DNA of 64,000 bases from Utricularia gibba (lineage: Eukaryota; Streptophyta; Magnoliopsida; Lamiales; Lentibulariaceae): the NCBI GenBank assembly GCA_002189035.1, contig NEEC01000004.1, positions 806,001-870,000 on the forward strand, read 5' to 3'. This document shows positions 1,059 to 48,859 of this stretch, piece after piece. Made by a program: the position numbers and the translations under genes. The notes under the pieces are model-generated. The model was not told where the DNA came from and made no database searches. It saw only the letters and a list, made by a program, of their open reading frames with translations. The number at the start of each line of letters is the position of its first letter. Within the stretch, counting starts at the first letter, position 1.

Positions 1059-1633
1059 CTACCTGGAAAGACAGGCATCCGCGTCTAAGAGAATCTGGTT
1101 TGCTTCATGATCGAGCTGGGCGGCGTCGTAGGCCTTGAAATTATCATTCTCAGAGGCGGTCGGCATCATCCTCATCATCCTAGGGTCATTAGAATGATCG
1201 ATGTTCATTCCCATCACATCACTACTAAGCTGGGTAATCATTTGGGTGTGTATCATACCATCATCACCAACACCGCGGCTGTTGTTTTTGTAGTACTCCA
1301 GCTGGGCGTAAACGTGTTGCAGCTCAGCTACCGCGCACCACGTGTCCTGCATCAGCTTGTTGATAACGTGTTTGCAACCCAGAACCGGGAACCTCCGGCG
1401 GATCTCCGCCTCGTAGATCATCGACTTTATCGCGTCGTGCTTGTGGTCCTCTCTTGTGAGGCTGTCCAGCGTCTTCGTCACTTTGGAGACGCCGAACAGA
1501 CGGTGGACGTTCTGGAAGTTCTGGAATCAGAGGCTGGGAAATAAGGGGCCAGCGTACAGTCGGGCGTGCATTTTCGGCGCTGATATTTGCAGGCAGCGCA
1601 GGCGGGGGCCGCGCCTCCTTTGTTTACTGTCAT
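1059..1633 (-). CDS. LOB-domain (LBD) transcription factor with a single-base frameshift
   Basis: Plant-specific nuclear DNA-binding protein of the LATERAL ORGAN BOUNDARIES family. The start is taken as the ATG at 1633 (MTVNKGG), just before the zinc-finger-like C block CAACKYQRRKCTPDC (CX2CX6CX3C). Next come APYFP, then the GAS block FQNVHRLFGVSKV, and a Leu/Val/Ile heptad region near residues 85-110. The C block and the GAS block lie in different frames. The shift falls at about 1521-1528, where one more C (GATTCCCAG instead of GATTCCAG) would restore the family spacing of six residues between YFP and FQNV. No intron borders explain it. The restored protein would be about 191 residues, a normal LBD size. 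The C-block type resembles the LBD7/22/27 group, but I am not sure of the subgroup. It is either a pseudogene or a real gene with an assembly error. Confidence 0.75.
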
Positions 1634-2880
1634 CGGCGTTTTCGACCAGAAAATCGCGGCGAGCGCATTATATTTTGGGTTTGCTTCTACGAAAAAAGGC
1701 ATACGTGGCATCCGGATAAGGCATCTTGACCAAGTTTTAGTATGATTTTTCCTTTTTTAATAATAAAAAGTTGGACTGTTGCCGAGTCTTCCGTACAACT
1801 ACTATAAAATTTAAATCACTCACCATTTTGTTAAAATTGATTGTTACAACCACCACAAGGTCATTATCTTTTTTTAAAAAAATATTTACAATTATTTCTA
1901 AAATTCCCAAATCCAAAATTAACTCAAAACCCTATATAAATATATTTATTAATTGCATATTTTCTCTGTAGAATTCATATTTCAAGAATGCAAAATATAG
2001 GCCCTCTTCTATAATCAAGTGGAAATAATTTCAAATTATATAAAATAGAATTAGTTTTGAAATTTGTAAATTTTTTTTAAAAAATATAAATTATATTATA
2101 GAGTTAACAAAAAATATTGTAAATTTGATATAAATGTATTTTTTTAAGTAAATAATATATTTTTTCTATTTAATCACTAAAACAAATATTCAGAAATTCA
2201 ATAATTTATGAAGTTAATCAATAAAATATTATATATGCGGAACAAGTTCATAAATTATAGATGATTCAAGATTTAAAAACTACAAGTAAATTATATAGCA
2301 ATATATGTATTTATTTAATAAAAATTTAGTTTTAAATGAATAATTTCTAAATTTAAAATGTTACTATAATAATTATTTAATAAACAAACTTGTTTAAGCA
2401 CCGTTGTACTAGAAAAGAAAAACATGAATATTTTTATTAGAAAAAATTGAAAAGCATAATCGGACAAGAATCATTTACCTGTGCCTTTTTGAGGGAGAAA
2501 AAGGGGTGCTTTTTTGGGGGGAGGATCTAAAGAAGAAAACATTGCAGAGGCAGAGACGGGGCCTTGTGGCTGGAAAGTTCTCTTTTTGCTGCTTACGTGG
2601 CATCCAACGACATCTTTTCGCTCCGCCAGCCACGTTTGTTGTGCTGTCCCTACGGAACATATTTTTACAACATCACCCCGGAGAAGAGCTAAGCTTGGAA
2701 GAAAAGCGCACCCACACCCGTCACTGTGTGTGTCAGATCTGTGCCGTTTATTTTTCTCTCTTCCCGATTACACGGTGGTTGGCTGTTTTCGCTATTTTTC
2801 TGTTGTTCGTTTCGGATTATATGTATGGGAGGGAGCGGTTTAGGGAGGGTTGAGTTGAGTTGAGATAAAGAAAGGGCAGA
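1634..2880. promoter_or_regulatory. Divergent intergenic region between LBD and CDF
   Basis: This 1.25 kb stretch separates two divergently transcribed transcription factor genes. The centre (about 1740-2470) is extremely AT-rich. The CDF-proximal part is GC-richer, with open frames that I regard as 5' UTR or chance. A TATA-like AAATATAATG on the minus strand lies about 30-40 bases before the LBD ATG. An ACGTGGC ABRE/G-box-like core occurs near 2595, and three TTGAG repeats lie just before the CDF start (about 2849-2864). Confidence 0.4.
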
Positions 2881-16900: not shown

Positions 16901-18067
16901 TGAAACCAACGAAACACTGATATTTTTTACTTCGTTATTACTGAAAAGTGAAAATCCTTTTTAAAACTAACTTTGGTCAAAGGAAAAACAAGTGAAAAGT
17001 GTAAATCCTTGAATAGCATCCTTCAGTTTTTTAAAGCAAAAATAAGTGAAGGACAAAAGTAACCTTGGTCAGTAACTGTTTGGTTTCCCCTTATACTCTG
17101 AACAGCATCCTTTAGTTTTTGCAAGGAAAGTTGAAAATCCTTGAACAGCTGCTTTCCAAAACGGTTATCTTGAACGAAACCAAGAACAAGATGCTCCACA
17201 GAGACATATGAATCACCAAATTCCTTTTTGTAATCTCTGGCACGTTGTATTAAGCCATCTAGATCACGCCCCAACATGGTTCCCGCTGAGTCACCAACAA
17301 CCTGGTATGTTTCATGTAAGATATAAAAAAATACCACCCATTTCCAACGAACACCATCAAATAAACCGAAATTTATTGAGGGTATGCAGCCGGAGTTCAA
17401 AATGAGGAAAGCGAATGAACGCATGATCATATTTCTCGTCCTGGTCAGATTCTTAAAACAACCTTGCGACAGATGAAAAAAGAAACACTTTGGAAGGGGT
17501 AAAAAGCAGTGCATGGGACAACCTTTGGCTGGCGTTGGATGTACTTATCCGTAGCCTCAAGAAGCCGAGTATTATCCACGCCCGCCTTAGAAAATATACG
17601 ACGAGCAAGTCCATTCTTCTGCTCCAAAAGGGCTTTCATCAAATGTTCCGTCTCAACTATTTGATTCTTATTCTCCTTCGCCACTTCCGGCGACAAGACG
17701 ATCGCCTGCCATGCCATTTCCGTAAAATCCGCCTGTGTTATCTGGAATAATGAAAAAAGAAAGGTTAGCTCTTTGATAGCTGACATTAAACTTACTCTAC
17801 CACTCGAAATGGCGGTGCACTTACTCTACCACTCGAAGATGCATCACAACTAACAGTAAACGATCTGTTAATCATAGAATTGTTCGATTTCCTAGAAACA
17901 CCCAACTCTTTTCGCCCAAGTCTAGATACACCGAAATTCTTTATGATTCTTGTAGTCCCTGAAAAGTGAAGACTCGACGGTGACCGAGCGAACATGGCGG
18001 CTCTACCGGAAGATCCCACAGGAAGCGCATTGAGTGTAACCGCCGCTGAGAGCGCCGTCGACGCCAT
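13913..18067 (-). CDS. CLPB3: Chloroplast ClpB disaggregase (ClpB3 / APG6)
   Basis: Hsp100 ATP-dependent disaggregase that rescues aggregated proteins in the plastid stroma with Hsp70; Arabidopsis mutants are pale or albino. Ten exons all join in phase: 18067-17825, 17741-17523, 17301-17064, 16781-16586, 16453-16399, 16329-16179, 16115-15807, 15605-15340, 15254-14316, 14239-13913; 980 residues. Residues 1-75 form a Ser/Arg-rich transit peptide. The Clp N-domain follows, then AAA domain 1 (Walker A GEPGVGKT near 290, Walker B ILFIDEIH). A coiled-coil M domain precedes AAA domain 2 (Walker A GPTGVGKT near 695, Walker [10 protein letters not shown], sensor-2 GARPVKR). The transit peptide points to ClpB3 rather than cytosolic Hsp101; mitochondrial ClpB4 is less likely. 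Exon 1 ends at a donor that is duplicated 29 bases downstream (see findings). Confidence 0.96.
17791..17837 (-). repeat. Direct repeat duplicating the ClpB3 exon 1 splice donor
   Basis: The 18-base word CTTACTCTACCACTCGAA (plus strand) occurs at 17791-17808 and again at 17820-17837, period 29. On the gene strand each copy carries the donor context GGTAGA|GTAAGT. The upstream copy (17825|17824) keeps the ClpB3 frame. The downstream copy would add 29 bases and shift it. Confidence 0.9.
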
Positions 18068-18830
18068 TCAGACTTACTTCACGGAACTGGAAAATTGAAC
18101 GAAAAAAACTCCTCGAATCGCTACGAAACTTGCAGGAGCGGGAGCCGATTCCTCTGGGAGATTCCAGTGCATTTTGCGTACAAAAAGAGCCAACGATATC
18201 GTTCGAGCAGGCCTCGGTACACAAACTCGTGGACACGTGGGCCAAAAATGAAGACTCCCGTTTTATTATTATTTTATTTTCATGGGCCAACCACCATTGG
18301 GCCCAAATTTTTGGGCCTAAAATTGGGTTGTGTTGATTGTAGATCTATAAGCTGGGGCCCAAAGTTTAGTAATCTCACCCCCACTAAAGTTGCCCCCTGG
18401 GTGACCCGCATCTTCATTTGACAGCCTAATGACAGCGGACAGTGCAATAGAACAATCGAAAATCCATGGCGACAGTGAGCTGATGGCAGAATTAGCGGAA
18501 GACGACGACAAGGAATTGCTGAGCTTTGCTTTGAGGCCTGAACATCGATCTATTTCTCTCCTATTCGGACTTCGCCCCTTCGGATTTCGATCAATTCGTG
18601 CTGATTCGTTTCATGGAGTACTTTTTACGTTGTGTTATAGAAGCTGATGCCACTGGTGACTTATTCATTGGACGGCATTGTATTGTCGTTTGAATGAATC
18701 TGTTGTTTCGTTATCGAAGATTTATTCTTCAATTGGGATCTCATTCAGGGGGTGAAGCTCTGGGCCTTCTGTGGAATCCTGGAGTTGTTTATCTTTCTCT
18801 TTGTCTTTTTGTTTTTGAGTTTTGGGATAA
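18068..18830. promoter_or_regulatory. Bidirectional promoter ClpB3 / FURRY-like with G-box and site II cluster
   Basis: Divergent genes share this 763-base region. A palindromic G-box CACGTG lies at 18234-18239. TGGGCC words occur at 18283-18288, 18298-18303 and 18312-18317, and on the minus strand at about 18356-18361. Such TGGGCC/T site II elements are known TCP-bound elements of housekeeping and organelle-biogenesis genes. I looked for a heat-shock element (alternating GAA/TTC) on the ClpB3 side and saw no perfect one. Confidence 0.55.
18429..18647 (+). other. Possible upstream ORF in the FURRY-like 5' leader
   Basis: An ATG-initiated frame of 72 codons lies 180-400 bases before the main ATG (18831). 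It begins with an acidic segment (ELAEDDDKELL) and has no family that I know. The transcript start is not visible, so it may not be transcribed as leader. Low confidence. Confidence 0.25.
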
Positions 18831-21800
18831 ATGAAGGCAGGGAGTGCAGCTAAGCTTATTGTCGATGCGCTGCTGCAGCGGTTCCTGCCTCTTGCCAGGC
18901 GTCGTATTGAAACTGCTCAAGTTCAAGTAAGTATTCGTGTAATGATATGAAATTTTAATTTTCATGGTGCCGTACACTTGCATTCTTTGACCTAGTAGTG
19001 GGTAATTAGATCATTCTAACTCAGGGAACTCTGTTGTCTTATACGTAATTCCTCTCTATAGGGTACTGCCTGGCATGATTTCATTAGTATTTCTTAGACG
19101 GAAAGATGAATTAATGAGCTATCTTTTTACATTAGCTTTAGTTTCAGCACCACCAAGTTGAAAAATGAAAGATAATGTCAGCTCATTTTCGTTAATATGG
19201 ATGGGTTAATACATGCTTGAATGAGGTGTTTTTATCTGATCAAGTAATTAACTGCTGTCATCTAAAAGTGCAATTATCTTTTATGTTATTCACTATAGGA
19301 TGGCCAGTACCTTCGACCGTCAGACCCAGCTTATGAGCAAGTACTAGATTCTTTAGCAATGGTGGCCCGGCATACACCAGTGCCATTACTTGAAGCTCTT
19401 TTAAGATGGAGAGAAAGGTTTCTTGTGTTTCATCTGAATAAAATCTTAGTAATCCGCTTTGGTTGGCCAAATTGATCCACAAATTTGCAGAGTTATATTT
19501 CCATTTATTTTCCTAAAGAATTTTTTTTTTTTTTTTACTGCAGTGAATCACCAAAAGGTGCTAATGATGCGTCTACATTTCAAAGAAAGGTTTGTCTCCT
19601 AATAGCTGTTTTCTCGTGAAAGTTCAGATGGATATTCATCTGGTAATTTATGAACTTTCTGCATTATGTTACAGCTTGCAGTCGAATGTATTTTCTGCTC
19701 GGCATGCATTCGCTTTGTTGAGTGTTGTCCTCAAGAAGGGCTTACAGGTTAAACCTGTGGTTACTTTTCCATAGCCACCACCAGCTAACCCCATTTTGAA
19801 TTTCCGTAGATTTTTATAATCTTTGGCTGGCAGCTATGCTATTGATTGGTTTTGATTTTTGTTTGGGCACTCTACATGCAGAAAAGCTATGGAATGGGCT
19901 TGAAAATTTTGTCTTTGACTGGTTAATCAACGCAGATAGGTAATGTTAGTTTTTTTGGCTTCGTCGTCAATTTTGTAAGTTCAATTGAAAGATATGCTAA
20001 CCATTAAACAGCTAAGGAACGTAGTCACCGTCTGATGATTCACATGTATAACTTTATGATTTCAATTTGCGCATTCCCAAATTTCCAAGATGTGATGGAC
20101 ACATTGATAATGCTGTTGCTGTCATTTATCTCTTGCAAATTACTATCCAGTAGGATCAATTCTTCAATCCTTCTTTACTTGAGTAATATCCATGGATTTT
20201 TAAACCCGTACCTGGTTGTCATTAAATTATTGTAACGTATTTTAGTATGAGCTGGAGTGATATCACATGCATCGATTACACCCATTGATGTGGTTATCTA
20301 TTTTCTTTCTTTTTCTTTTATGATGATCGCATGAAACTTTTATTTTGAACTACAGGGTTGTTAGTCAAGTTGAATATCCCTCCCTCATTGACTTGAGAGG
20401 GCTTCTGCTGGACCTTGTTGCACAGCTTCTCGGTGCCTTATCACGTATCAGGCAAGAAATAATTCTTCCATCATGGAAACAGCTAATTCTTTTCTTTGAT
20501 TTGTTTAAGGTTTGAGCCATGTTGTTATTTAATATAGCTTATTACTAAGCAATGCGTTTCAGTTACTTCAAATTTGGTGGTCCTTTTTCTAATGTTGTAG
20601 ATTGTGAATACTTATGAGAAACCTGTAGAATTCAGTTGATGTTATATGGTGACATGCCCAGTACCTTTTATTTCTGTTTCCTGATTAGCTTAAAAGGACC
20701 CATGTTGACAAGTTTGTCTATATTCTGTTAAGCGTCGAGTCATGTTTAACTGATGTTTCCCCACGTTTTGCTCCACAGATTCAGTTCAGTGACTGAACGC
20801 TTTTTTATGGAACTGAATACTCGTCGCATTGATACGAGCTCAGCTCGTGGTGAAACACTAAGCATTATAAATGGGATGCGCTACCTTAAGCTGGGGGTAT
20901 GCAAATTGGAGCAATTGATTGTATTTCTGCAGAGGCACTTATGAAGTAATATATTTTTCAGGTTAAGACAGAGGCTGGTCTGAATGCATCAGCATCCTTT
21001 GTTGCAAAGGCCAACCCCCTAATTCGTACTCCTCACAAGAGAAAAAGCGAACTATACCATGCACTCTGTAACATGCTCTCTAGCATACTGGCACCACTTG
21101 CGGACACTGGAAAGGATCATTGGCCTCCCTCTAGTGTTGAGCCAGCCCTATCCTTCTGGTATGAAGCTGTTGCACGAATAAGGATGCAGTTAATGCATTG
21201 GATGGAAAAGCAAAATAAGCATATAGCTGTAAGCTCCTTTATTGCCACTTGCAAGGGAGTTTGTCCTTTAATTTGTAACCCTGGTGTTTGCTTTATACAG
21301 TGTGGGTTTTATGCTTGGCATTACACGTGAAGTTTTTCTTTTATTTTTTTGTTTTGAGTTTTTGTTTCTCATTAGAAAAGGGGAATGGTCAGTATTCAAA
21401 TCATGCCACATAGTCTTCTCCTTCATTGAAACCTTACTAGATTTATAAAATTTTAGGAAAGTTAGATCCTGGAATTTTATGTTTGGTTAGAGAGCGCATG
21501 ATGATATAAATTTGTTTTTCATTTGCTCTAGGTTGGTTATCCTTTAGTGACTTTACTCTTGTGTCTGGGCGACCCCATTACGTTCCTCAATAGTTTTGGT
21601 CAGCACATGGAACAATTATACAAGCATCTTAGAGTAAGTTTTCAATGTATCGTGCACTCGTTTTAGTCATTTTTTTATAATTTGGGTGTCATCATTAAAG
21701 GTTTTTTAACTTCACTTTGTTTCCAGGATAAGAATAACCGCTTCATGGCATTAGACTGCTTACATCGCGTTCTAAGGTTTTACTTGAGTGTCCATGGGGA

Positions 21801-24800
21801 GGCACAACCTCACAATCGTGTGTGGGATTATCTGGACAGTGTCACCGCACAACTTCTTAATATCCTTAGGAAAGGAATGCTAACTCAAGATGTCCAACAT
21901 GACAAGCTGGTTGAGTTTTGTGTTACTATTGCTGAGCATAATCTTGAGTTTGCTCTGAACCACATGATACTTGAGTTGTTAAAGCAGGATAGTCCAGAAG
22001 CGAAAGTTATTGGGCTTCGTGCATTGCTTGCCATTGTCATGTCTCCAACTAGCCAGCATGTGGGCTTGGAAATTCTTCATGGTTATTCTAAGTTCACTAT
22101 AATTTTTCTTTACATTCAGTATTGTATATATCCTTAACTACTTAATTATATTCCTATTTGCAGCTCATAATATTGGACATTATATTCCAAAGGTTAAGGT
22201 TGCAATTCAAGTTATTCTGAGATCGTGTCATAAAACATATAGCCAAGCCCTTCTTACGTCATCAAGGACTACTATAGGTATATTCATAGAAGTGTTGCTG
22301 TTACATATGTATGCATTTTATACAAGAATTAGCCAATGCCATAGATGTGATCATAGCATGCTTAAAATGAAAGTTGTCAAAATGTGCACAAGTTATGCTG
22401 GCAGAATGAACCATAATTTTTTTCCTGAAGATATCCTCCTATACATATTAATTTTCATTTTTATCTTTATTGTTTTGAGAAATGTTTTAAATTATTATTT
22501 TATGTAGATGCTGTTACAAAGGAAAAGTCACAAGGGAATCTGTTTCGCTCAGTGCTTAAGTGTATACCCTATCTTATTGAAGAAGTTGATCGAAGTGATA
22601 AAATCACTGAAATAATTCCTCAGCATGGCATTAGCATTGATCCTGGTGTTCGGGAAGAAGCTGTGCAAGTCCTTAATAGGATCGTGAAATATCTTCCTCA
22701 TCGGCGCTTTGCAGTCATGAAAGGAATGGCAAATTTTGTTCTACATCTCCCAGATGAGTTCCCTCTTCTCATTCAAACTTCATTGGGACGCCTTCTAGAT
22801 CTCATGCGCTTCTGGAGAGGATGTCTATCTGATGAGAAGATGCAACATAGTGCTAGTGATTTGAAGCATTTACAGAGAAAGGATGGATTGAAAAGGGCAT
22901 CATATAACCAGCCTCATGAAGTAATTGAGTTTCATGCTTCAGAAATAGATGCAGTTGGTCTTATATTCTTGAGTTCAGTTGATAGTCAGATTAGGCATAC
23001 TGCCTTGGAACTACTTCGTTGTATTCGTGCTTTATGGCATGACATACGCGAAATTTCCATGCAAGACCTTAAAGATCATTCGTTAACATTTGATGCAGAA
23101 CCGTTATTCATAATTGATGTGCTGGAAGAGAATGGGGTAACGGATTCTGACTGTGTTGTAGCTATTATGCACATTTACATTATTCTTCTTTTTTCACATT
23201 AAGTTATGTGTTAATTTTATTATTTTACCAGGATGATATTGTGCGGAGCTGTTATTGGGATTTTGGCCGCCTTTTTGATATGAAGCGAGAATCTGATACC
23301 TTACCACCTGATGTTACTCTCCAATCTATACTATTCGAGAGCCCAGACAAGAATAGATGGGCACGATGTCTAAGTGAGATTGTAAAGTATGCTGCTGAGT
23401 TATGTCCGAACTCCGTTCAGCAAGCGAAGTAAGAAAAACTATCTATATTAAGAATCTTGCCAGTAGATATGCTAGAAATACCAATTCTTTAGCTGCATAA
23501 TGAGTCTTTTAGCAAGTGCACGTGAATTATCTCAGAAATGTAATGTTTCCAATAGTACTGTATGGCTGTTGTTTAGTGTGGGCTATTGTTCTAAATAAAA
23601 ATGCGAATTAGCATTAACAAGGATGAGCAAGTTCTCAATTCCTTCTCAGATGCGAACATTCTGCATTTTTTGTGATACAGTCTTAAAGTTCATATAATTG
23701 CAGGCTAGAGGTTATCCAGCGCATGTCTCATATTACACCTTCTGAGTTGGGTGGAAAAGCAAATCTGTCACAAGATACTGATGGTAAGCTGGATCAATGG
23801 CTCATGTATGCGATGTTCGCCTGTTCATGCCCCCTGATAGGCGAGAAGGTGGGGGTTCTGCAGCAGCAAAGGAACTATTCCATCTGATTTTCCCTTCCCT
23901 CAAGTCTGGATCTGAATCCCAAGTAGTAAGTTCCTGCTCAACAAGTTTCTTGTACTCTTGAGGTTTGAATTTTGAGTGTCTGTCCATTACTTCAAGCACT
24001 GGGTATGATTCATATAATAGAAAAATTTAGAGGTCCTACTGTTTTTTTTTTCCTCTTTTCGTGCATCCACACATAGGAACTATATAAGGTTCACAAATGA
24101 TTTGAAGTTCTGCATTGACTTTATAGAAGGAATGCAATGTCTAATCTCCATTTCCTCTGCTGCAGCATGCAGCCACCATGGCACTTGGTCACTCACATCT
24201 GGATATATGTGAAGTTATGTTCAGTGAACTTGCATCATTCATGGATGAGGTTTCGCTGGAAACTGAGGGAAAACCAAAATGGAAGGTATAATTTATGATA
24301 AATTAACTACAGAAATTGCTGGCCATGTCTGTCTTAATGTGCATCCGTTTGACGTGGGGCGTCTGGAAGTAATCCAACTGACTGAGTTCTGTAAATGGAA
24401 TCGTAAATTGTTTCTCCTGTTGACAACCTGGAAGTGTGCACTACTCTAGTTACTAATTTTTTAGTCTGATTGTGGAGCGACTATAAAGCTCTGGAATGAC
24501 ATCCATAGTCTCTCAAATGCTTCAGTCCATATTTGTCTTAATCTTTTGGATTTCACTGATTTTTTATTGCATTATTCTGGCTGCAGACTCAAAGATCACG
24601 CCGTGAAGAACTCAGAGTCCATATTGCAAATATCTATCGCACTGTTGCTGAAAAAATATGGCCTGGAATGCTAGTCCGTAAGACAGTTTTCCGCCTTCAT
24701 TACCTGAAGTTCATTGATGAAACACAAAGGCAGATTGCATCAGCAACTGCAGAGAGCTTTCAAGATGTGCAGCATCTCCGATATGCTCTTGCTACTGTTC

Positions 24801-27800
24801 TAAGATATTTGGCACCGGAATTTGTGGATACAAAGTCAGAGAAATTTGATATTAAAACTAGAAAGAGGCTTTTTGATCTTCTCCTCTCCTGGAGTGATGA
24901 CACGGGCAGTACATGGAGTCAGGAGGGGGTTAGCGATTATCGGCGTGAAGTTGAGCGATACAAGTCAAATCAGCATTCAAGATCAAAAGATTCCATAGAT
25001 AAGCTCTCATTTGACAAAGAGTTGAGTGAACAAGTTGAGGCAATACAACGGGCCTCCATGAATGCAATGGCTTCGCTGTTATATGGGCCTTGCTTTGATG
25101 ACAATGCAAGAAAGATGAGCGGTCGGGTAATATCTTGGATCAATAGCTTGTTCATTGAGCCTGCTCCCAGGGTACCTTTTGGCTTTTCACCTGCAGACCC
25201 AAGAACTCCATCTTACTCAAAATTTAATGGAGATGGAGTTAGAGGAGCAACAAACCGTGATAAGCAAAGAGGGTTTTATAAAGTTTCTCTTGCTAAATTA
25301 GCATTGAGGAACCTGCTTCTAACCAATCTGGATCTCTTTCCTGCCTGCATTGATCAGGTAATTACAGAAGAAAATGTTTACCTTATATGCAAAAATTTAT
25401 ACAGGAAGTTTATAATTCAATGGTACCATGATGAGAACACATGAAGGTTACTCATATCCACCTCTTATGTCGTTTTTAAAGCTGCATAAATCATTGCATG
25501 TTTTGTTTCCACTGGGATCATTGTTAATAGTTAATGTTTATGCAGTGCTATTATTCCGATGCCGCAATAGCAGATGGCTACTTCAGTGTGCTGGCTGAAG
25601 TCTACATGCGTCAAGAGATACGATGTGAGATTCAGAGGCTTTTGAGCCTTATCCTATACAAAGTGGTAGATCCATCAAGACAAATTCGTGATGATGCTCT
25701 TCAAATGCTAGAAACCCTTTCTGCTCGTGAATGGGCTGAGGATGGTGCCGAGGGCCCAGGAAGTTATCATGCAGCTGTTGTTGGAAACCTTCCTGATTCT
25801 TATCAACAATTCCAGTATAAACTATCGTGCAAACTTGCTAGAGATCATCCAGAATTGAGCCAACTTCTCAGTGAGGAAATCATGCAAAGGCAGCTAGATG
25901 CAGTGGACATAATTGCACAGCATCAGGTCTTGACATGCATGGCTCCTTGGATAGAAAATTTAAATTTTTGGAAACTGAAGGATTCTGGATGGAGCGAAAG
26001 ATTATTAAAGAGCCTATATTATGTCACTTGGAGACATGGAGATCAGTTCCCTGATGAAATTGAGAAATTGTGGAGTACAATAGCAAGCAAACCCAGGAAT
26101 ATAAGTCCCGTTCTGGATTTCTTGATCACCAAGGGTATCGAGGATTGTGATTCGAATGCATCAGCTGAAATAAGTGGAGCATTTGCCACATACTTCTCCG
26201 TTGCCAAGAGAGTTAGCTTATATTTAGCTCGAATTTGTCCGCAACGTACAATTGATCACTTGGTTTACCAACTGGCTCAGCGAATGCTCGAAGATACTGT
26301 GGAACCGCTGGGACCTGTCACGAGTAAGGTTGATGCTGTAGGGGGGATGGTTTTGGAATTTTCACAGGCTCCTGCAGTGCCCCAAATTACTTCACTCGTT
26401 GACAATCAACCTCATATGTCACCTTTGCTTGTCAGAGGATCTCTTGAGGCACCACTGAGGAACACCAGCGGAAGCTTAAGCTGGAGAACCTCTGCTGTTG
26501 GTGGGCGAAGTGCTTCAGGTCCATTGACACCCATGACTCCGGAACTTAATATCGTTCCTGTAACAGCTGGTCGATCTGGACAACTGCTTCCAGCATTAGT
26601 CAATATGTCTGGGCCCCTGATGAGCGTCAGAAGCTCAACAGGAAGCCTACGAAGCCGTCATGTATCTCGAGACAGTGGTGATTATCTCATAGACACTCCG
26701 AACTCTGGTGAGGACGGATTGCTTTCAGGAGTTGGAACACATGGTGTCAACGCTAAAGAACTTCAGTCTGCATTACAAAGCCATCAGCAGCACACATTGA
26801 CCCAGGCAGACATTGCACTGATCTTGCTTGCTGAAATTGCATACGAGAATGATGAAGACTTTCGGGGGCATCTGGCATTGCTATTCCATGTAACATTTGT
26901 CTCAATGGACAGTTCAGAGGATATCGTGTTGGAACATTGCCAACATCTTCTTGTCAATCTGTTATACTCGCTGGCAGGCAGGCACTTGGAACTGTATGAT
27001 GTTGAGAACAGTGATGGTGAAAATAAGCAGCAGGTTGTTAGCTTGATCAAATATGTGCAATCAAAGAGGGGTAGCATGATGTGGGAAAATGAAGATCCCA
27101 CGTTGATAAGAACGGAGCTTCCGAGTGCAGCACTTCTATCTGCTCTGGTGCAGAGCATGGTGGATGCCATATTTTTCCAAGGTGATCTTAGAGAAACTTG
27201 GGGTGCAGAGGCACTTAAATGGGCCATGGAGTGCACATCACGGCATCTTGCATGTCGGTCACATCAAATATACCGTGCACTGCGGCCCCGTGTCACCAAT
27301 GATGCTTGTGTTTCTCTTCTTCGCTGTTTGCACCGGTGCCTGGGTAATCCTGTACCAGCTGTTTTGGGCTTTGTCATGGAAATTCTGTTGACTCTGCAAG
27401 TGATGGTGGAAAACATGGAGCCTGAAAAGGTCATACTTTATCCCCAGCTCTTCTGGGGCTGCGTTGCAATGATGCATACAGACTTTATTCATGTCTACTG
27501 CCAGGTGCTTGAGCTTTTCTGCCGAGTAATTAGCCGTCTGTCTTTCCGTGACACGACCACGGAGAATGTCCTCCTTTCAAGCATGCCTCGTGATGAGCCT
27601 GACACAAATAGTTCAGATACCCCTGAATTTGAGCGGAGGAACAGCTTGGAAGCATCAACATCAGCTTCAAGGGTCCCGGCATTTGAAGGAGTGCAACCTC
27701 TTGTGCTCAAGGGCCTCATGTCCCACATCAGCCATGATGTTTCTATTGAAGTCCTCTCCCAGATAACAGTGCCTTGTTGTGATTCAATATTTGGTGATAC

Positions 27801-28608
27801 AGAGACACGACTCCTCAGACACATTATGGGCCTACTTCCCTGGCTTTGCCTACAGCTCAATAAGGACAACGTGGGGTCTGTTAGTCCAACTCAAAAGCAG
27901 CCTCAGGAGGCTCGCTCAGTCGCAGCAAATATCGCAATCTGGTGTCGAGCCAAATCACTAGACGAACTAGCGACCGTGTTCATTGCTTACTCCTCCGGTG
28001 AGATAAAAGGTACTGAAAACCTTCTTGCTTGCGTATCCCCGCTTATGTGCAACGCCTGGTTTCCAAAACACTCTTCTCTAGCCTTTGGACACCTCCTAAG
28101 ACTTCTAGAGAAAGGGCCGGACGACTATCAGCGTGTCATACTTGTGATGCTGAAGGCTCTGCTTCAGCACACTCAGGTAGATGCCGCCCAGAGCCCCCAC
28201 ATGTATGCTATTGTCTCCCAGCTGGTGGAAAGCACTCTCTGCTGGGAAGCTCTCAGCGTCCTCGAGGCACTCCTACAAAGCTGCAGCTCCTTGCCAGGGC
28301 TGCTCCCACTGGATGCAGCAGGATCAGGATCCATGGAGAATGGCTTTGGCACCATGGAAGAGAAGATAACTCTTGTTCCTCAGACCTCTTTCAAGGCCCG
28401 AAGCGGACCTCTACAGTTCGCCGGATTCGGGTTCGGATTCCCTCCTGGACAAGCTAGCAACCCGACAGAATCCGGTGTTTCTGCAAAAGAACAGGCCTTG
28501 CAGAACTCACGGTTGATGCTGGGGCGAGTGCTTGATGGCTGTGCTCTTGGTAGGCGTAGAGACTATAGAAGACTCGTCCCTTTCGTAAGCACCCTCGGAA
28601 ATGCATAG
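18831..28608 (+). CDS. FURRY-like giant ARM/HEAT-repeat cell morphogenesis protein, with a single-base frameshift
   Basis: Plant homologue of Furry/MOR2-PAG1 (At5g15680-like). Furry proteins scaffold NDR kinases in polarised growth; the plant role is little known. The start [15 protein letters not shown] is the family N-terminus. Seventeen exons: 18831-18926, 19299-19417, 19544-19589, 19675-19747, 19882-19939, 20356-20451, 20779-20896, 20962-21228, 21532-21633, 21727-22081, 22164-22277, 22508-23136, 23232-23428, 23704-23925, 24166-24285, 24587-25357, 25546-28608; about 2148 residues when complete. Intron 6 is GC-AG (ATCAG|GCAAGA). Exon 14 is one base short: a C5 run (23830-23834) should be C6 to read [10 protein letters not shown] and to match the phase of exon 15. 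As written, translation stops about 20 codons later, near residue 818. The final exon alone holds 1020 intact, highly conserved codons, which argues for a functional gene with a sequence error. Confidence 0.92.
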
Positions 28609-28788
28609 GGGCGCACGGTGGCAGTACCCAGGTTTTCCCTTCTAAGCTTTTGCCAGTAACTGTAAATAACATTAATGTAGCTGTGCTTATGTCCTCCTAC
28701 ACAAGCAATTTATCAAAATTTTGTCTATGTTGCAAGTAGCTTCATTACATGCTGTGTCTGAAAAGGTTTTCCACTGTTCCTCTGGTAT

Positions 28789-30385
28789 TTAGCCTTGAAA
28801 ACTCTCATGCATAGTGATTTCCCTCCTGAGCAGCTCTTGCAGGAAGTCATTCCAGGAATCTATGGGGCCTGGCAAGCACCAGTGCACACAGTCATTGGGA
28901 AATGACTCATTTGCCCCCGACCACCGTCCGTATTTACTCGGGTGCCCATCGGGTCTCAACAGCATTGCCCTCGTGACGTCGAATAGCTTGAACTTCCCGC
29001 TGTTCTTCTTCCCCTTGGCTTTCTGCGCGATTCTCAGCTCCTCCAGTTGAATCAGGTACATCTCTAGACTGTAGTCCTCCAGGACTACGTCGGTTCGCTT
29101 GAACGGCCTCGTTCGTACGCAATCGCCGCCCTTGTCCCACGCCGCCCCTCGAAATGCGACGGCGCGTAGGTCCTCAGAAACGTCACGCCGTTGAAATGCG
29201 ACTCCATGATCGCTCGGAAAGCTGTACGGAAGGCGCGGCGGTAACTGAAGAAGGATGTGAGGTGCGAGATGTTGGTTTCGGGGCAGTATAGGCAACCGAC
29301 GATGCGTTTTTTGTCGAAGAAATAGGTTGGCCGGAAGAACCAATGGCCGGCGGAGATGATCAGGAAGTCGTGGGACGCGATTTGCGCTCCCCAGTGCGTG
29401 TCGGATTCGTCTAGGTATAGTTTGAAGGGACGCTTTTCATCTTCGTCGTCTGTTCTCTCTGTTCTCACCAGATACGGCGCCCAGAACATCGAAATGTTGA
29501 AATCGTGTTCTGTGAATTCGTAGCGCTTGTTCTGATCCAACGGATGTGAATCGTCCACAGGATCTGCAACCTGAGAATTACATCAGAAAATAGTCTCCGT
29601 CTCAACGGAAAAGGTGGAAGAGAACATACCCCGGACAGGAGACAGATCAGTGACTGCATGTGATTCCGCGCAACGGAATCCCCAACGAACGCGATTGATT
29701 TACCCCTGACAAGACGAAGAAAGCGCTCCGCGTCAAACGCCGGCAGCTCGCAGCCGTCGGGCTTCCACCGCCATTTTAGGTAATCCCGATCCGGCCTACC
29801 GAACTTCAAGCAATTCTGATGCTCCTGAATCGCATTGCAGGTCTCGTTGGTGTAGTACGGCCCATCAAAATTCGGTACCCAGTCTCCAGAAAACAGGTCG
29901 CACTCCTTGTCATTCATCACCTTTGATCTCACCATAGCACGCTCATTGCTACTGCTTCTGTGATTGCTCCTTTTGATCCTAACCCTGACTTCATCTCTAC
30001 TTGATCTCTCCTCCTTTTTGCTTCCCTGTTTTATAAATTCTCTATGGGTTGTCATTGCGTGATTTCCTTGAATCTCCTCCTCTTGCTTCTCTGAATATGC
30101 CTTTGGGGATGGAACATCATCTGGTCCTTTCCCGGCCACCTCCATTTCGATATGGGGGACGACTACATCCAGCTGGTAGCTCGGGGTCTTCCCGGTTTCA
30201 AAAAGGTACGATTCTCCTTCCCCTGAAACTGAAGTTCTGTGCAATTTCTTTGAAGAATCTTTGAGTATTAGATAATACAATGGGAAAGTCACGAATACGG
30301 TGAGGGCTATAACGTGAGCAACTCTCAATGGCCTTCTTTTAGATTGAGTCTTTCCCATAGGAAGTTCAGCTGCCTGAAACTTCAT
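28789..30385 (-). CDS. TBL: Trichome birefringence-like (TBL) polysaccharide O-acetyltransferase, with a single-base frameshift
   Basis: Golgi type II membrane enzyme that O-acetylates cell-wall polysaccharides, usually xylan or mannan. Two exons: 30385-29630 and 29570-28789. The ATG at 30385 is chosen (the frame upstream begins only with TTG); 30358 is an alternative. A single membrane anchor lies at about residues 20-42, followed by a charged stem. The TBL domain has [11 protein letters not shown], the GDS esterase motif FVGDSVARN, and the DxxH motif in DCVHWCLPG. Exon 2 is 782 bases, one short of phase: in GAGGGGCGGCG (C4 at 29145-29148 on the plus strand) one more G would join SHFEG to AWDKGGDC as in the family. 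The restored protein is about 512 residues. It is closest, from memory, to TBL19/20/21. Confidence 0.88.
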
Positions 30386-30783
30386 TCCTTTTTGTCCTTT
30401 CTGGGTTGACACATGTTGAAGAAGGGGCGAACCCCTCTCCAAATTCAAAGGTCAAACCGTGAAAGAAGCATTGCCTAATTTTTGCCAAAAATGTGCGTTT
30501 AGGAGGAAATTATCATCAATATGAAGGAAATGTGTCATAAGTGTTTATTTCTCTCTATGAGATTCTTGCAATTGCTCAATAGGTGTTGTCTTATTCCAAA
30601 ACTTAATATATAATTTTTTTTAAAAAAAATAATATCCTTTTTTTCTTTTTATTTATAAGTTATTGTGCAATGGTAGTTTTATTTTATTAAGAAATGTCAT
30701 GGCTGACACGCCAGAAAGGAAATTGATCAACAGGCAGAGGTGAAGGGGAAAGCAGTCCAGTCCTTGTCGGTGGAACTCTGTTT
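30386..30783. other. Intergenic between TBL and COMT-A
   Basis: AT-rich in the middle, no gene. Holds the TBL promoter and 5' UTR on the left and the COMT-A 3' UTR on the right. Confidence 0.4.
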
Positions 30784-32457
30784 TCACTTCAAAAGCTCCA
30801 TGATCCAAGAGAGGTATGCGCAGCAGACTTTGCGGAAGTCTTTGAACCCGGCGGCGACGGCGAGGGCGTGATATTCCTCTTCTGTCCTCTCCCTGCCGCC
30901 GGGGTTATACCCCAGCATGATGATGTCAGCATGCGCGACGATTTGTGTAGCCAGGGAATGGTCAGGGGCATTTGGGAGAATGCACTCCACGAGGATCAGC
31001 TTTCCGTTGGCCGGAAGTGACTCATAGCAGTTCCTGAGGAACTTCTTGCAGTGCTCGTCGCTCCAGTCATGGCAGATCCACTGCATTGATTTGTAGGGAA
31101 GAGGTAAGTGCTCTGATCCATAGGGATTTTCAGTCACCCAGAAAATGCTTCATCCTTAAAGGAACATCATCAATGAAGAGGTTCACCTTCATGAAAATGG
31201 CGTCTCCTTTCGGGACACTCACGAACATGTCTCCACCAACATGTTCCACCCCTACGGAAATGACACAAAAACCCATGAAGAACAGTTTAAACTTCCGAAA
31301 GTAGAAGGGTATGTGGGGGAAATACCGGGATAGGGAGGGGCGTCACGAACAACGTGCTCCAGGTCGAAGTTGATGGCCCTGATGTGGGGGTACTTGGACA
31401 CAATCATGTGAAGGGAGGCGCCGGTTCCGCCGCCGACGTCCACGACGGTGGAGACGCCGTCGAAGCCGTCGTAGGAATCCAGGAGCTTTTTCATGGTGAT
31501 GGTGGAGGTGTTCGACATTGCGGCGTTGAATATCCTGTTGAACCTGGGATCGGTGCCGTGGTACTCAAACGCCGTCATCCCGTAGGCCTTGTTGAACGGA
31601 ACCCCACCCTCCAGCACCGCGTCTTTCAGATGATACCTTTTTTTGTAAAAAATACCTATTTTAGAAGTTGGAAATCATAAATGTAAATGGGCCCCCCAAG
31701 ACCCCATCAACACCGATAGGTGATGTGGTATTGTGGACGATGACTGCGCTGCACATGCACCAACATGCTAGTAAAATAAACTACATAAATATTTTTTAAA
31801 AAAAAATTAGGAAAAAATTATTGTCAATGAGTAATGAATAATTACAATTACGATCTGCACCTATCTCCAAAATCAAAGTCCAAAGCATGTAAGAAACCAT
31901 CACTAAATTTCACACTACGCAAAGTGCTCGCCTTCAATCACAAATGTAGCCAACGTTCTCATATGATATTATTTCTTTTTTTTTCGGAATAAAATATAGT
32001 TTTCTAATTGAAAATTGCGGAAAACCGAAGAAGCGTTACCAGCTCTCCATGAGGACTTTATCGTGATTCATGAGTAGCAACGGTGCCACAGATACTCCGT
32101 CCTCGTTCTTGGTCAGAAACTTGCAAACCGGCGCGAGACCGTAACGGCGCTCAACTCGGCCGTCGGTGAGCTCCGTCACCTCACAATCGAGCACCGAGTA
32201 GCACGCCAGGAGACGGAGGATCCTGTCGAGCATCACCGGAGCCAGGGGATTGACGGCCGGGATCTGCGCGGCGAGCTCCGTCGCGGAGACGAAAGCGCCG
32301 ACGCCAGATTTCTTGATGAGCTCCAGCAGATCCAGTTCCACGGCGCATTTGAGGACCATGGGGAGCACGGAGGCGCTGGCTAGCCGCAGCGCGTAAAAGA
32401 AAGCGTCTTCGTCCGAGACGACGTCGCATCGGGGGAATTCTTCTCGATCGAGCCCAT
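30784..32457 (-). CDS. COMT: Caffeic acid O-methyltransferase, copy A (frameshifted, divergent pocket)
   Basis: SAM-dependent class II plant O-methyltransferase. COMT methylates 5-hydroxyconiferaldehyde/caffeate-type phenolics in lignin synthesis. Exons: 32457-32040, 31636-31326, 31251-31187, 31080-30784; 363 residues when restored. The N-terminal dimerisation domain is followed by the SAM motif [10 protein letters not shown] and the catalytic His in HDWSDEH. The ATG (MGSIE) is out of frame with the rest: a G5 run at 32431-32435 (C5 on the gene strand) needs a sixth base. The position equivalent to alfalfa COMT His183 is Thr here (MSNTST instead of MSNHST). The intron 1 acceptor region carries a 19-base insertion, so the acceptor used must be AAAAAAAG|GTATC, a poor site. 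Substrate is uncertain; it could be a specialised OMT or a decaying copy. Confidence 0.88.
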
Positions 32458-33605: not shown

Positions 33606-35143
33606 TCACTTGGAAAGCTCCATGATCCAAGAGAAGTTGTAGGCGCAGCAGACTTTACGGAACTCTTTGAACCCGGCGGCGACGGCGAGGGAGCGGAATT
33701 CCTCTTCTGTCCTCTCTTTGCCGCCGGGGTTGTGCCCCAACATGATGATGTCGACATGGACAACGTTTTGTGTGGCGAGGGAGTGGTCAGGGGCATTTGG
33801 GAGAATAGACTCCACCAGGATCACCTTTCCGGTGGCCGGAAGCGACTCATAGCAGTTCCTGAGGACCTTCTTGCAGTGCTCGTCGCTCCAGTCATGGCAA
33901 ATCCACTGCATCGATTGATGTTACTTGAGATTGTTGAAATCGTGAAAGGAAATTCAACTCAAGTAGACGCACCTTCATGAGAATGGCATCTGCTTTGGGG
34001 ACGCTCACGAACATGTCTCCTCCGACATGCTCGATACCTGGAGAAATGGCAAGAATGCCGCTCAAGCTCAAAACCTGCAGGGAAATGAACCAGAAGAGCA
34101 GCCATGTAACGCGAGAATGTGAGAACCTGGATACGGGGGGCGTCACGAACAACGTGCTCGAGGTCGAAGTTGATGCCCCTGATGTGGGGTACTTGGACAC
34201 GATCATATGAAGGGAGGCGCCGGTTCCGCCGCCGACGTCCACAACGTTAGAGACGCCGTCGAAGCCATCGTAGGAATCCAGGAGCTTTTTCATGGTGATG
34301 GTGGAGTGGTTGGACATTCCGTTGTTGAAGATCTTGTTGAACCTGGGATCGGTGCCGTGGTACTCGAACGCCGTCATCCCGTAGGCCTTGTTGAACGGAA
34401 CCCCACCCTCCAGCACCGCGTCTTTCAGATGATACCTGCAATCCAACTTCGACCATTAATTACTACAAGTAAACACCATCCCCACCTATCAGCTCCGGAT
34501 TCAGTGTTAACCATTAAATGACCTCTGCGCTGCGCTGAACTTTCAGAAGCATAAATGCCTCAGACCACCGACGGTAAAATTGTACCAAGTTTCTGATATG
34601 GATTTTCAAAATTTTTACAATGCTAACGAAACCCTAACCACAGCCCTTCAAACTGCATGTGTAAACCCAAACGAAGCTTTTTTGTTTTTCTGCTGTCAGT
34701 TTAGGGTTTGTTATTAAACCAGCGTACCAGCTCTCCATGAGGACCTTATCCTGATTCATGAGCAGTAACGGCACCAGGGAGACGCCGTCCTCGTTCCTCG
34801 TCAGAAACTTGCAAACAGGAGCGAGACCGTAACGGCGTTCGGTTCGGCCGTCAGGGAGGGCCTTGGCCTCGCAATGCAGCACCGAGTAGCACGCCAGGAG
34901 ACGGAGCATTCTATCGATCATCTCCGACGCCAGGGGATTGGCGGTGGCGATCTGCTCCGCGAGCTCCACCGCCGAGACGAAAGCGCCGGTGTCGGATCTC
35001 TTGATCAGCTCCAGCAGATCCAGCTCCACGGCGGCTCTGAGAACCATCGGTAGCACGGAGGCGCTGGCCAGCTTCTTGGCCAACAAGAAAGCCTCCTCAT
35101 CGGAAACGGAGTCGTCATGGAGGGAATACGCGATTGAACCCAT
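33606..35143 (-). CDS. COMT: Caffeic acid O-methyltransferase, copy B (two single-base losses in exon 2)
   Basis: Tandem COMT paralogue. Exons: 35143-34728, 34435-34127, 34037-33973, 33905-33606; 363 residues when restored. The start is [11 protein letters not shown]. It has the expected pocket residues ([26 protein letters not shown]), the SAM motif [11 protein letters not shown] and the catalytic HDWSDEH. Exon 2 is 309 bases against 311 in copies A and C. The two missing bases map to a G4 run at 34186-34189 (G5 in A and C) and a G6 run at 34135-34140 (seven needed to read DAPPYPG). Both are plus-strand coordinates. Exon 1 is the most diverged of the three copies ([19 protein letters not shown]), while exon 4 is almost identical to copy C. 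Probably functional if the runs are sequencing errors. Confidence 0.88.
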
Positions 35144-38570: not shown

Positions 38571-39202
38571 TCAGATTTTTGTAGAGCATTGCGAAGCTTG
38601 TCTGGAGGTTAGAGGAAGGGAAGGCGTGTCCCCATACCGCATAACACTCACACAGTCTACTGTGAATCTGTGCCTCCCTGAAACCCAGCTCCCCACCTTC
38701 CATCTCAGCCGTCCGGCGACCTTGAAGCTCAGATTCATCTCTCCTGTGATGCGATCGCGTTCGACCTCGCCTTGGAAGGACGGCGGCACCGGCTGCCGAA
38801 CTCCGACCAGGACGGCGCTGATCAAGTTGGTCCCCTCGTGCACCTGGTAGAAGGGGGGACGTAAGTTTCCGGGGTGATGATCTGCCCATTGTAAGACGCG
38901 GAGACCGTGAACTCGTCGTAGTAGACACCCACTTTCTGGTTCGGGTTATCGGACTGGAGCGTCAGGTGGATGGAGGTGTTGAGCTGGGAGGGGGCGGTGA
39001 GGTTGAGGAGATTGAGCTGGGCTTGTTGGAGGGAGAATTTGGGGCTTTTGGGGTGGAGGATGAGCCAGAGAAGGAGAACCAGGAAGACCAATGACACAGT
39101 AAATGACAGAAGGTAGTACACACGCTTCTTGTTGAACTTGTGGGCATATGGGGACTGCTTGGCTGCACAGTGCTTGGGAGATCTCTCAGAGATTACAGAC
39201 AT
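38571..39202 (-). CDS. NDR1/HIN1-like (NHL, LEA_2 domain) membrane protein with a single-base frameshift
   Basis: Single-exon gene for a small plasma-membrane or ER protein of the NHL family, several of which act in pathogen or stress responses. A cytosolic N-terminus (SVISERSPKHC) is followed by one membrane helix (about residues 28-49) and a LEA_2 domain (LNTSIHLTLQSDNPN, YNGQIITPETYVPP). The family tail (FYQVHEGTNLISAVLVG, LRWKVGSWVSGRHRF, QCSTKI) lies in the next frame. The frames meet at a G6 run (38853-38858 plus strand, C6 on the gene strand); a seventh base reads YVPPFYQ as in the family. The restored protein is 210 residues, normal for NHLs. Either an assembly error or a recent loss. 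Confidence 0.87.
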
Positions 39203-43836: not shown

Positions 43837-43842
43837 CACGTG
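43837..43842. promoter_or_regulatory. G-box CACGTG in the PRR5/PSRP1 promoter
   Basis: Palindromic bHLH/bZIP core (context GACACGTGGA), the type bound by PIF and HY5 factors. It lies near the third evening element. Confidence 0.55.
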
Positions 43843-44191
43843 GAAACTGTGGGTTTGGATATCTTCGAACGTGTGGCTGTCGTGGAGCTCAAATAATGGG
43901 GAAAAATAATTAAATATTTTTTATTGATGGATGCAGATATGGGCTTGTCTCGTCTTCACATGGAGGCCTGCCCCATGGTTGTTGATTTTGATGATGGCGG
44001 CGGGCTTACTTTTCAGGCCCATCGGCTCTGGATCTGATCCATTCTCCAAAGGCAAAGCTCGTGCAAAGGTCACCGGTTTCCTCGCACCTGTGTGTCGCTG
44101 CTCAAGGTTTAGGATATTCATTTCATACTTGTGTAGTGATAGATAGATAAAGCCCATCTCCCTCTTCGCTTGTTGTTCATCATTATCCGAA

Positions 44192-45579: not shown

Positions 45580-46710
45580 ATAGGTAAGGTAACAGCTCCA
45601 TCATGCTCTGTCTGTGCTTCGCCTTCCCTTTGAGAAAGGCTTTTGCTTCTTTATAAATACGAGCATTCAGAGAATCCCCACGGCATCACTCTTCCTCACC
45701 ACCTCCCCCGAAGTTGTCCATAGTGTGTGTCCCTTTGATTGAGAAATGCAGTACATTTGGTATAATATTTTAATGAATAATGTATTTGAATTATTTCTTT
45801 CTATAGGCATATGATTAAAATAATATTGTGTTTTGTAAATGTGTTTAGAATACATGTAAAAAAATAATTCATTCATATAATAAAAGAATTTTGAAAATTT
45901 AATAAATTGTAATTTTTGGTGTAGCTGGCCCTAACTGGATTGCATTCATGGACTCAGCCCAGGTGAATGGTGTGCATGAAAGATGGGCCGTTTCTCTCTA
46001 GGCCCATTATTGAGAAAGGAAGGGAAACGTGTGTTTTGACCGTACAATCAGAATCCCTGGTCAACACGTGTCCTTGCACCTCCGTGCGTGTCGGCAATTC
46101 AGCATTTCGACACGGCGACGCCTGAGGGTTTTCTTGAAACCATGCGGTTCTCGGTACGCAAGAGAACCTCAAGAGAACGAACTTATCATAAGTACGCCAT
46201 TTTGTGGAATAAAATTAAGATTGAATAAATTTTTTTCTACTAAAAAAATTAATTATGGTTGAATAATTATATACATAAATAGTTATTTTTATGGTAAAAA
46301 AAAAGAATATTTAAATAAAAAAATTCTGAAAAATAGGAAATTGGAATGGATAGTCCGATTGTGAGTGCTGCTCCAAAACCCCTCTCTCTCTCTCTCTGTC
46401 GTGCTTTTCAACGGAGACTTTGAGACAGAGATGATCTTCCAAGATGCCTTAAACAAAGCAGCAGGGGAATTTAATATTGCTTTGAAGGTCTCTGATTCAT
46501 TTGTTTTTTAGTGTTTCTTCTCTGCGTCTTTGCGTTTGGAGAGTTGTGGTGTATTTCCTCAAGTCATACGGCCGGTGTGTTGAAACAAATCCTGTTTTTG
46601 TAATTTTGTTTTGTCTGATCACTTTTATGCCAGACCTTGTAAGAGAATTTGAGTGAGATTTGAAGGGAAATCGAGGACAGGGACATCGCTAGATTGTCCT
46701 TTTGTTAGCC
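45580..46710. other. Intergenic: PSRP1 3' region and CID promoter
   Basis: AT-rich between about 45750 and 46330. A CT microsatellite (about 46382-46397) lies in the probable 5' leader of the CID gene, a common place for CT repeats in plants. An ATG at 46431 opens a 26-codon frame that may be a small uORF. No other gene. Confidence 0.45.
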
Positions 46711-48859
46711 ATGGTCTTAGTGGAGAAGGTCGCGGCGAACGCGCCGCCGCCGCATCGGGATTCTTCTCAGAATAACGACATCCTGGGAGATCACCATCAC
46801 CAGTTGGTCAAAGCCACTGCTAAGCCTACCGATCAGAATCTTGAATTGATGGAGCAGAAGATGTCCGATGGTCACTATCAGTTTAAAGGGGATGGGATTT
46901 CACAGAAGGAGAATTTGATGAGGGGAAATGATGACGACGATGCGGGTTTCTGTAGAAAAATGAAAGATTTGGAGGAAATGCTCTCTAAATTGAACCCCAT
47001 GGCTGATGAATATGTTCCATCATCAGTGGTGGCCATTGCCGGCAGTAATGGTCAGCAGGGGCTATTCGTGCATTCCCCGCATGCAGCTGCCGCTGTTGCT
47101 GGAGTGGTTCCCGGGCATTTTGGGTACAATCTTAATGGCTTTGTAGTGCAGCAACCAGTGAACTCTGAGGATAATTCCCTGAGAAAGGTTTGTACTCTGC
47201 TAGAGACGTGCAGGAACCATGTAGAATTCTTCATTTTTCTTCATTTTTTTCGATGTAATCATCTCTGGTTAATTGAGATAAATTTCAGTGTTGGATTATT
47301 GAGATTATGCGTGTAAGTGAAGGGGCTGTTTTTTTTTTAATTGTGGATAAGGTTCGATTTTTGGGTCATGAGATCCTCTCGATTGGTTTATGTATGATTC
47401 GCTGGTTATGTTTTAAGAGTGCTGTTTGTATGTTGTGATGAGTTGACTATGTGCAGAAGACAAGTGGCTATATCCGTGGAAAAAGACGGATAAATAGCAG
47501 AACCAGCATGGCTCAAAGGGAAGATGTGATCAGGAGGACAATCTTTGTCTCTGACATTGATCATCAGGTAACTAGAAATTTTCTTTGTGCATTGTGATGC
47601 ATTTCTCTCTTTATTGTGTTATCATTTTTCGCTTCATTTTAGGTTACTGAAGAGCAGCTTGCTGCACTTTTTAATGGCTGTGGCAGGTAGCCATTTATTT
47701 GGCATCTTGTGTATATATATATCACAACATAAAGATATAAGTTACATCATGCATAAGCTTGTGATTTTATGATTGGAAGGTTGTGGATTGTCGTGTTTGT
47801 GGTGACCCAAACTCTGTTCTTCGATTTGCTTTCATCGAGTTCACTGATGAAGGTATGCTGTTTTCATGATTATTTAGTTGCTGTTAAAATATTTTCTGTT
47901 TAACATCAACCTTCCTCCTCCTTGATATGCAGAAGCAGCAAGGAATGCTTTAAGTTTGACGGGAACCATGCTTGGATATTACCCAATCAGAGTACTGCCA
48001 TCTAAAACTGCAATTGCGCCTGTTAACCCGACATTATTGCCCAGGGTAAGAGTCTTCCCTGCATTTAGTAGATTGCAGTATTTCTTGTCTTCAGGATCAC
48101 AATGATTTTGTGTCTATTTTCTTTCTCAAGTCTGAGGATGAAAGGGAGATGTGTGCAAGAACTATATACTGCACAAACATTGACAAAAAGGTAGATTCTG
48201 AATTTTGTGTTGATTTACTAGAGGAAAGGTTTTTAAAACTTGATGCATCAGGTCACTCAAGCAGATCTCAAACTCTTCTTCGAATCAATCTGTGGAGAGG
48301 TTTGTTGTTTCCAAATGCCATATATGGAAATCTCACGCACGGCACTGAAAAAAAGGATTTGTGAACCAGGTACATCGTTTGAGACTCCTTGGTGACAATC
48401 ATCACTCAACCCGCATAGCATTCGTGGAGTTTGTCATGGTATGCACCTGAGACTGGTTACATCTGATGGTCTTATCTTCTTTAGGACAAGTAACTCCATG
48501 AAAATCTTGCTCTTACCAAGTTTATGCCTTTTAGTCACATCCTTATGGGGTAGTATACCCATGAAGACTAGCTTCCCAATGAAATGTTTTGACATTGGTG
48601 TGTGTTGCTAGTATCTGTATTACAACTAAGGATGTTCTCGTTGCCATTTTCAGGCTGAAAGTGCAATAGTCGCGCTGAACTGCAGTGGCGCCGTCGTAGG
48701 ATCGCTGCCTATAAGGTGAATCTTGTCTCTCGGCCTTCCTCTGTTAGTAGTGTCTCATCAGCTACTGTGTGTCTGTTTAGGGTTAGCCCATCGAAGACGC
48801 CGGTCCGGCCACGTAACCCACGTCCCGCCTCCAAATGCCCTGAACCCATCAACAGTTGA
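46711..48859 (+). CDS. CID8-13 type RNA-binding protein (PAM2 motif and two RRMs), with a single-base frameshift
   Basis: Protein that binds poly(A)-binding protein through a PAM2 motif and RNA through two RRMs; likely cytosolic mRNA regulation. Exons: 46711-47187, 47457-47567, 47643-47686, 47780-47852, 47933-48045, 48131-48190, 48252-48299, 48370-48438, 48654-48715, 48781-48859; about 378 residues. PAM2 is LSKLNPMADEYVP (about residue 95). A basic segment GKRRINSRTS precedes RRM1 (RTIFVSDID, RFAFIEFTDE). RRM2 has RTIYCTNIDKK and RIAFVEFVMAESAI. Exon 3 is 44 bases where phase needs 45: GGCAG|GTAG should be GGCCAG|GTAG, reading NGCGQ-VVDC as in the family. The true start is the ATG at 46711; the frame before it starts at TTG. 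Among family members I favour CID13 from context. Confidence 0.9.

Follow-up and report, generated by a model that had tools for sequence, protein, structure and literature searches.

Consensus sequences called from PacBio reads with Quiver are known to lose single bases. In a bacterial consensus, 561 single-base deletions were identified by Illumina alignment (PMC4888979), and homopolymers of nine G have been described as a weak point of Quiver, the frameshifts at such places being mostly gone after re-polishing (PMC4853030). Frame breaks in conserved genes are also a mark of the gene-loss pseudogenes of reduced plant genomes. The present analysis concerns seven apparently broken genes in a stretch of 64,000 nucleotides from the bladderwort Utricularia gibba (positions 806001-870000 of contig NEEC01000004.1, assembly GCA_002189035.1; contig C413 in our numbering), which is hereafter called the window. 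The U. gibba long-read assembly has been reported to comprise 82 Mb with a contig N50 of 3.4 Mb, obtained with HGAP at 88x (PMC5793159). The assembly searched here holds 100.09 Mb in 516 contigs, and ten contigs of at least 3.446 Mb together make up 50.53 Mb, so that the N50 is at least 3.446 Mb; the platform was presumably PacBio long reads with HGAP/Quiver. Literature searches, the reach of which did not extend to the assembly's own paper, returned no report of such errors in this assembly.

We consider it highly probable that the breaks in the window stem from errors that remained in the consensus of a noisy long-read assembly, and that the plant genes are intact. They resemble the known PacBio/Quiver homopolymer deletions in being one-base, run-bound and frame-breaking. 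The present case differs in that a bias towards C/G over A/T could be measured at equal run length, in that a shift is found in 16 of 45 GRAS places across the genome, and in that the lesions are known from the assembled sequence alone. With gene-loss pseudogenes, on the other hand, they share only the frame breaks in conserved genes, whereas the absence of aligned stop codons, the single sign of the shifts, their proximity to C/G runs and the constraint on the COMT copies set them apart. The breaks thus very probably represent an artefact of a known kind and not a real feature of the plant.

An earlier note on the window had claimed that seven conserved genes are disrupted by eight single-base losses, all of them in C/G runs, and that these losses point to systematic homopolymer under-calling. 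The frame breaks themselves were borne out. Seven of the 19 genes counted in the window are broken, and at all eight places the break is of the -1 (or +2) class. The places are as follows.

1521..1528, minus strand: LBD (LOB-domain gene), -1 class break at the C/G pair GG 1523-1524 (as read on the plus strand)
23830..23834, plus strand: FRY/MOR2-PAG1-type gene, -1 class break at CCCCC
29145..29148, minus strand: TBL (PC-Esterase) gene, -1 class break at a run of four
32431..32435, minus strand: 5' end of COMT-A, whose start codon is out of frame with the body; the lesion can be placed in more than one way
34135..34140, minus strand: COMT-B, -1 class break at a run of six close to the end of an exon
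34186..34189, minus strand: COMT-B, -1 class break at a run of four that is a run of five in COMT-A and COMT-C
38853..38858, minus strand: NHL (LEA_2-type) gene, -1 class break at a run of six
47682..47686, plus strand: CID-type gene, exon end one base short at the GG pair 47682-47683

The names FRY, TBL, COMT, NHL, CID, PRR and ELP5 are in part tentative. The location of all eight losses in C/G runs could be upheld in part. It is well supported at five sites (FRY, TBL, COMT-B twice and NHL), where the runs are of four to six bases; at LBD and CID it holds in the weak sense of a C/G pair, and at COMT-A it is left open. In the FRY-type gene, the Pfam profile MOR2-PAG1_mid matches as 135-182 and 179-213 in overlapping frames. 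Alignment to a plant FRY protein sequence gave 610 identities in 744 codons, 402 in 562 and 953 in 1139 for three overlapping parts, with a single shift along the whole gene, at 23831. Apart from this shift the gene is well conserved, and a DNA search gave no second copy of its 3' part (23000-28608). That search, with 23000-30500 as the only part of the window tried for second copies, matched only this stretch itself and TBL-type places. No relative of FRY 25534-28608 was found among solved structures. In the FRY intron at 20445-20778, a GT-AG model splits the intron around a 7-base exon; judged by eye, this intron probably has a GC donor.

In the TBL gene, PC-Esterase matches 51-186 and 181-283 lie in overlapping frames, alignments to two paralogs agree on the position of the shift, and all three fetched paralogs read through the break point. 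The third of these TBL paralogs (L074, C304:2156300-2158500) has a -1 shift of its own, about 24 codons beyond the position of the break in the window. For the NHL gene, one and the same shift was obtained against each of three unbroken paralogs, a fourth fetched paralog (L079) having an intron nearby; the LEA_2 match spans only positions 1-32 of the 98 in the profile and is below its cut-off. The LBD gene shows two overlapping LOB matches in different frames, with LOB 28-96 in the downstream frame. Its shift was seen against a profile built from six LOB-domain paralogs, and the break adjoins a 9-base tandem repeat. For the CID-type gene, all three paralogs (L075, L076 and L077) finish the exon in frame, as judged by reading a three-frame print. 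The frame break at this site therefore stands, but the run quoted for it does not, since 47683-47686 reads GCAG and the GG pair lies at 47682-47683.

The three COMT copies of the window could be compared with one another, while the COMT loci on contigs C414 and C430 (L069-L071) were compared by BLAST only. In the three-copy alignment, the frames of COMT-A and COMT-C run on through both places where COMT-B is broken. At 34135-34140 the frame break is present, and an in-frame alternative donor, which by eye would cost a few residues, may also serve. The frame break at the 5' end of COMT-A was confirmed as well. However, the unbroken COMT-C has the same CCCCC, and the lesion can therefore not be assigned to the C run; immediately upstream COMT-A has two extra bases, and the loss of a base in the C run is one option among several.

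Two gene families were used to follow such lesions across the genome. A GRAS profile search was grouped into 20 split-looking and 25 full-length places, two of the latter being one locus on contigs C316 and C412. All 20 split-looking and 20 of the 25 full-length places were fetched, which leaves out five full-length places and one fragment on C321. For the BAHD family, 20 loci were hand-picked (9 split-looking and 11 full-length). The aligner was frame-shift-aware and allowed for introns, unbroken loci served to build the profiles, and two rows were removed (L032, an assembled duplicate of L033, and the fragment L020). Sixteen of the 20 split-looking GRAS places carry a shift, and the remaining ones represent introns (three) or a fragment (one). 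In the 54 GRAS and BAHD loci that remain when L008, L015, L016 and L018, with three or more shifts each, are set aside, 21 of the 22 shifts are of the -1 (or +2) class; in all 58 loci, this holds for 30 of 35. These shifts are spread over many contigs and are not tied to one locus. The longest C/G run within 9 nucleotides of a shift has a mean length of 3.86, compared to 2.31 (standard deviation 0.18) at random coding places, and this value was reached in 0 of 5000 draws. A/T runs near the shifts are not enriched (2.10 versus 2.35 at random; 4694 of 5000 draws as high). In addition, one and the same motif, GGPP, is the break point in five paralogs of the GRAS family, each on a contig of its own (C244, C375, C142, C2 and C1). 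Each of the four GRAS loci set aside has three or four shifts; these loci may be genuine pseudogenes or stretches of low quality.

A further line of evidence is provided by a locus that was assembled twice. The 38 kb contig C316 (L041-L044) duplicates part of contig C412 (L045-L048, C412:821501-861500), with an identity of 99.6-99.8% over two blocks and a divergent middle. Over 29,286 aligned columns, the two copies differ by 23 substitutions, by 35 indels of one base (20 in C/G and 15 in A/T) and by 8 longer indels. Such an excess of indels over substitutions would be unusual between alleles, whereas consensus errors would readily give it. With numerators assigned by the longer copy and denominators counted in C412, indels amount to 7 in 1554 C/G runs of two bases, 3 in 392 runs of three, 5 in 99 runs of four and 4 in 13 runs of five; for runs of six the count is 1 in 3, which is too few to weigh. 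The corresponding figures for A/T are 1 in 356 runs of four and 1 in 113 runs of five. On C412, a single G is lost at three places and a GC at one, all clustered within about 150 bases.

Together, the random draws for GRAS and BAHD loci, the counts in the duplicate locus and the stop-codon count given below place the lesions beyond what chance would produce. The systematic under-calling proposed in the earlier note is supported by the recurrence of the same lesion class in unrelated genes and on many contigs, by the dependence on C/G run length with fewer losses in A/T runs of equal length, by the sign, which is nearly always -1, and by the disagreement between the two assembled copies. We infer that the cause lies in base calling or consensus rather than in mutation. 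A base in a C/G run would be dropped, with a chance that grows with the length of the run, and polishing would leave the short call in place. The genes themselves would then be intact, COMT-A being the least certain of the eight sites. In the living plant, the seven seemingly broken genes are very probably intact.

Several observations weigh against this interpretation. In raw PacBio reads, polyT and polyA, and not C/G, are the most over-represented homopolymers (PMC7671305); this benchmark deals with the error rates of raw reads, and its parts covered here contain nothing on a C/G bias in the consensus. Of the 21 GRAS/BAHD shifts in the -1 class, 9 have no C/G run of at least four within 9 bases. 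C/G runs of six to seven are also present in the window, for example at 26341-26346 inside FRY, and the loss in C/G runs is thus probabilistic. A census of run lengths (223 kb of the genome versus 80 bacterial control loci) revealed no sharp C/G cut-off, and the census alone is therefore no proof of under-calling. The C/G excess in the duplicate locus comes mainly from C316, which misses 16 C/G and 10 A/T bases, whereas C412 alone lacks 4 C/G and 5 A/T bases. The two contigs may also represent alleles or repeats, in which case some of the indels would be real, and the two-base change in COMT-A may be real as well. No stop codon was found among 21,743 aligned codons (59 loci), beside 35 shifts; however, the raw matches to the GRAS and BAHD families list stops in several loci, and the aligner assigns these to introns or to sequence read beyond a shift, by which a true stop could be hidden. 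The score per codon is lower in broken than in unbroken loci (2.31 versus 2.64 for GRAS, 1.92 versus 2.44 for BAHD), partly because the profiles came from the unbroken loci. Altogether the case is an indirect one, as it is built on what was assembled and not on reads.

If the breaks were true mutations, they would reflect a mass decay of genes that are losing their function in a lineage whose genome has shrunk. This view could draw on the four GRAS loci that have at least three shifts each, on the lower score of the broken loci, and on the truncated DCL3 reported for U. gibba (PMC8333044). We nevertheless regard it as very improbable. As the earlier note had argued, gene decay would also bring stops, and in the aligned codons there are none. 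The shifts are almost all of one class and lie close to C/G runs, and one motif is broken in five paralogs. FRY is otherwise well conserved, and its 3' part appears without a second copy in the DNA search. Furthermore, the ratio of non-synonymous to synonymous substitution rates (dN/dS) among COMT-A, COMT-B and COMT-C, computed in the frame of COMT-C and for this one family only, is 0.24-0.31, although this ratio is blind to a very recent loss. The COMT copies have therefore been under constraint, and the relaxed selection expected from mass decay was not encountered. The -1 sign, the C/G length bias, the lack of aligned stops and the disagreement between copies are expected from under-calling and are not predicted by gene decay.

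Consensus errors could also account for most of the eight breaks while one or two of them, namely COMT-A and perhaps LBD, are real. This would refine rather than exclude the explanation by under-calling, and we consider it possible, albeit on the unlikely side. It would suit the C run that COMT-A shares with the unbroken COMT-C, with the two extra bases upstream, and the position of the LBD break at a pair beside a 9-base repeat. Yet pairs of C or G have lost a base between the two assembled copies as well (7 versus 1,554 pairs), and the rest of the COMT-A body is conserved. Lastly, the short runs might be real if a widespread shortening of C/G runs were tolerated and full proteins were made through slippage of RNA polymerase or ribosomes. 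There is no direct support for such slippage, which would reconcile the conserved proteins with their broken frames; C/G pairs and places without a run would give little to slip on, and the locus that was assembled twice differs between its copies. We attach next to no probability to this idea and retain the residual consensus errors as the most probable explanation of the breaks.

Among the genes of the window that appear unbroken, ClpB shows no shift in 854 codons when compared with a cyanobacterial profile, and the PPR gene (1,222 amino acids) and the Dof gene (424 amino acids) each form one single long frame; for the remaining unbroken genes, the judgement was made by eye only. Pfam matches support Dof, PPR, MRG, TMEM230, S30AE, WRC, 6-phosphogluconolactonase-type, MFS_5, O-methyltransferase, LOB, MOR2-PAG1 and PC-Esterase assignments, while a CCT match falls under its cut-off and no Pfam match was obtained for those frames of CID and ELP5 that were scanned. 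The earlier note had added that no A/T run in a coding exon is affected. This is not secured, both in view of the genes judged by eye and of the frame at 17970-18333, just upstream of FRY, which shifts within an A/T stretch; no Pfam match was obtained for this frame in two frames scanned, and no paralog was found. Frames at 57336-57859 resemble, by eye, the remains of a transposase, and a Pfam scan gave no match there. Elsewhere in the assembly, the lengths of contigs C1, C2, C505 and C507 (8,500,000; 6,192,500; 3,452,500 and 642,500) are all whole multiples of 2,500, a sign that these contigs were probably cut by hand.

A gene that has been described as truncated in U. gibba is DCL3, which was reported to lack the helicase and Dicer-dimer domains, with support from RNA-seq and 5' rapid amplification of cDNA ends (5' RACE; PMC8333044). 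We found four Dicer-type RNase III loci, three of which have a Dicer_dimer match. The fourth (L168-L169, C213:2748501-2764000) has Dicer-like 3 as its best match, narrowly. It gave no Dicer_dimer match and, in the ten frames that were scanned (the others being inspected by eye), no helicase match. A missing domain match is in itself no proof that the domain is absent, but this locus is in line with the reported truncated DCL3. DCL3 does not seem to be a victim of C/G under-calling, since no frame-broken helicase was seen in about 12 kb upstream and the authors of that report had RNA-seq and 5' RACE data (PMC8333044).

The artefact is frequent enough to matter for claims of gene loss. Over 62.8 kb of coding DNA, the 22 shifts correspond to about one missing base per 3 kb, in a sample that was enriched for broken loci, and C412 shows 9 one-base losses over 29.3 kb. 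About a third of the GRAS places (16 of 45) look broken. If this rate holds, the numbers of gene losses, truncated proteins and contracted families derived from this assembly would be inflated. The assembly seems to drop single letters from C/G runs, both in the window and in other genes of the genome, and claims of gene loss in U. gibba that are based on it therefore need checking.

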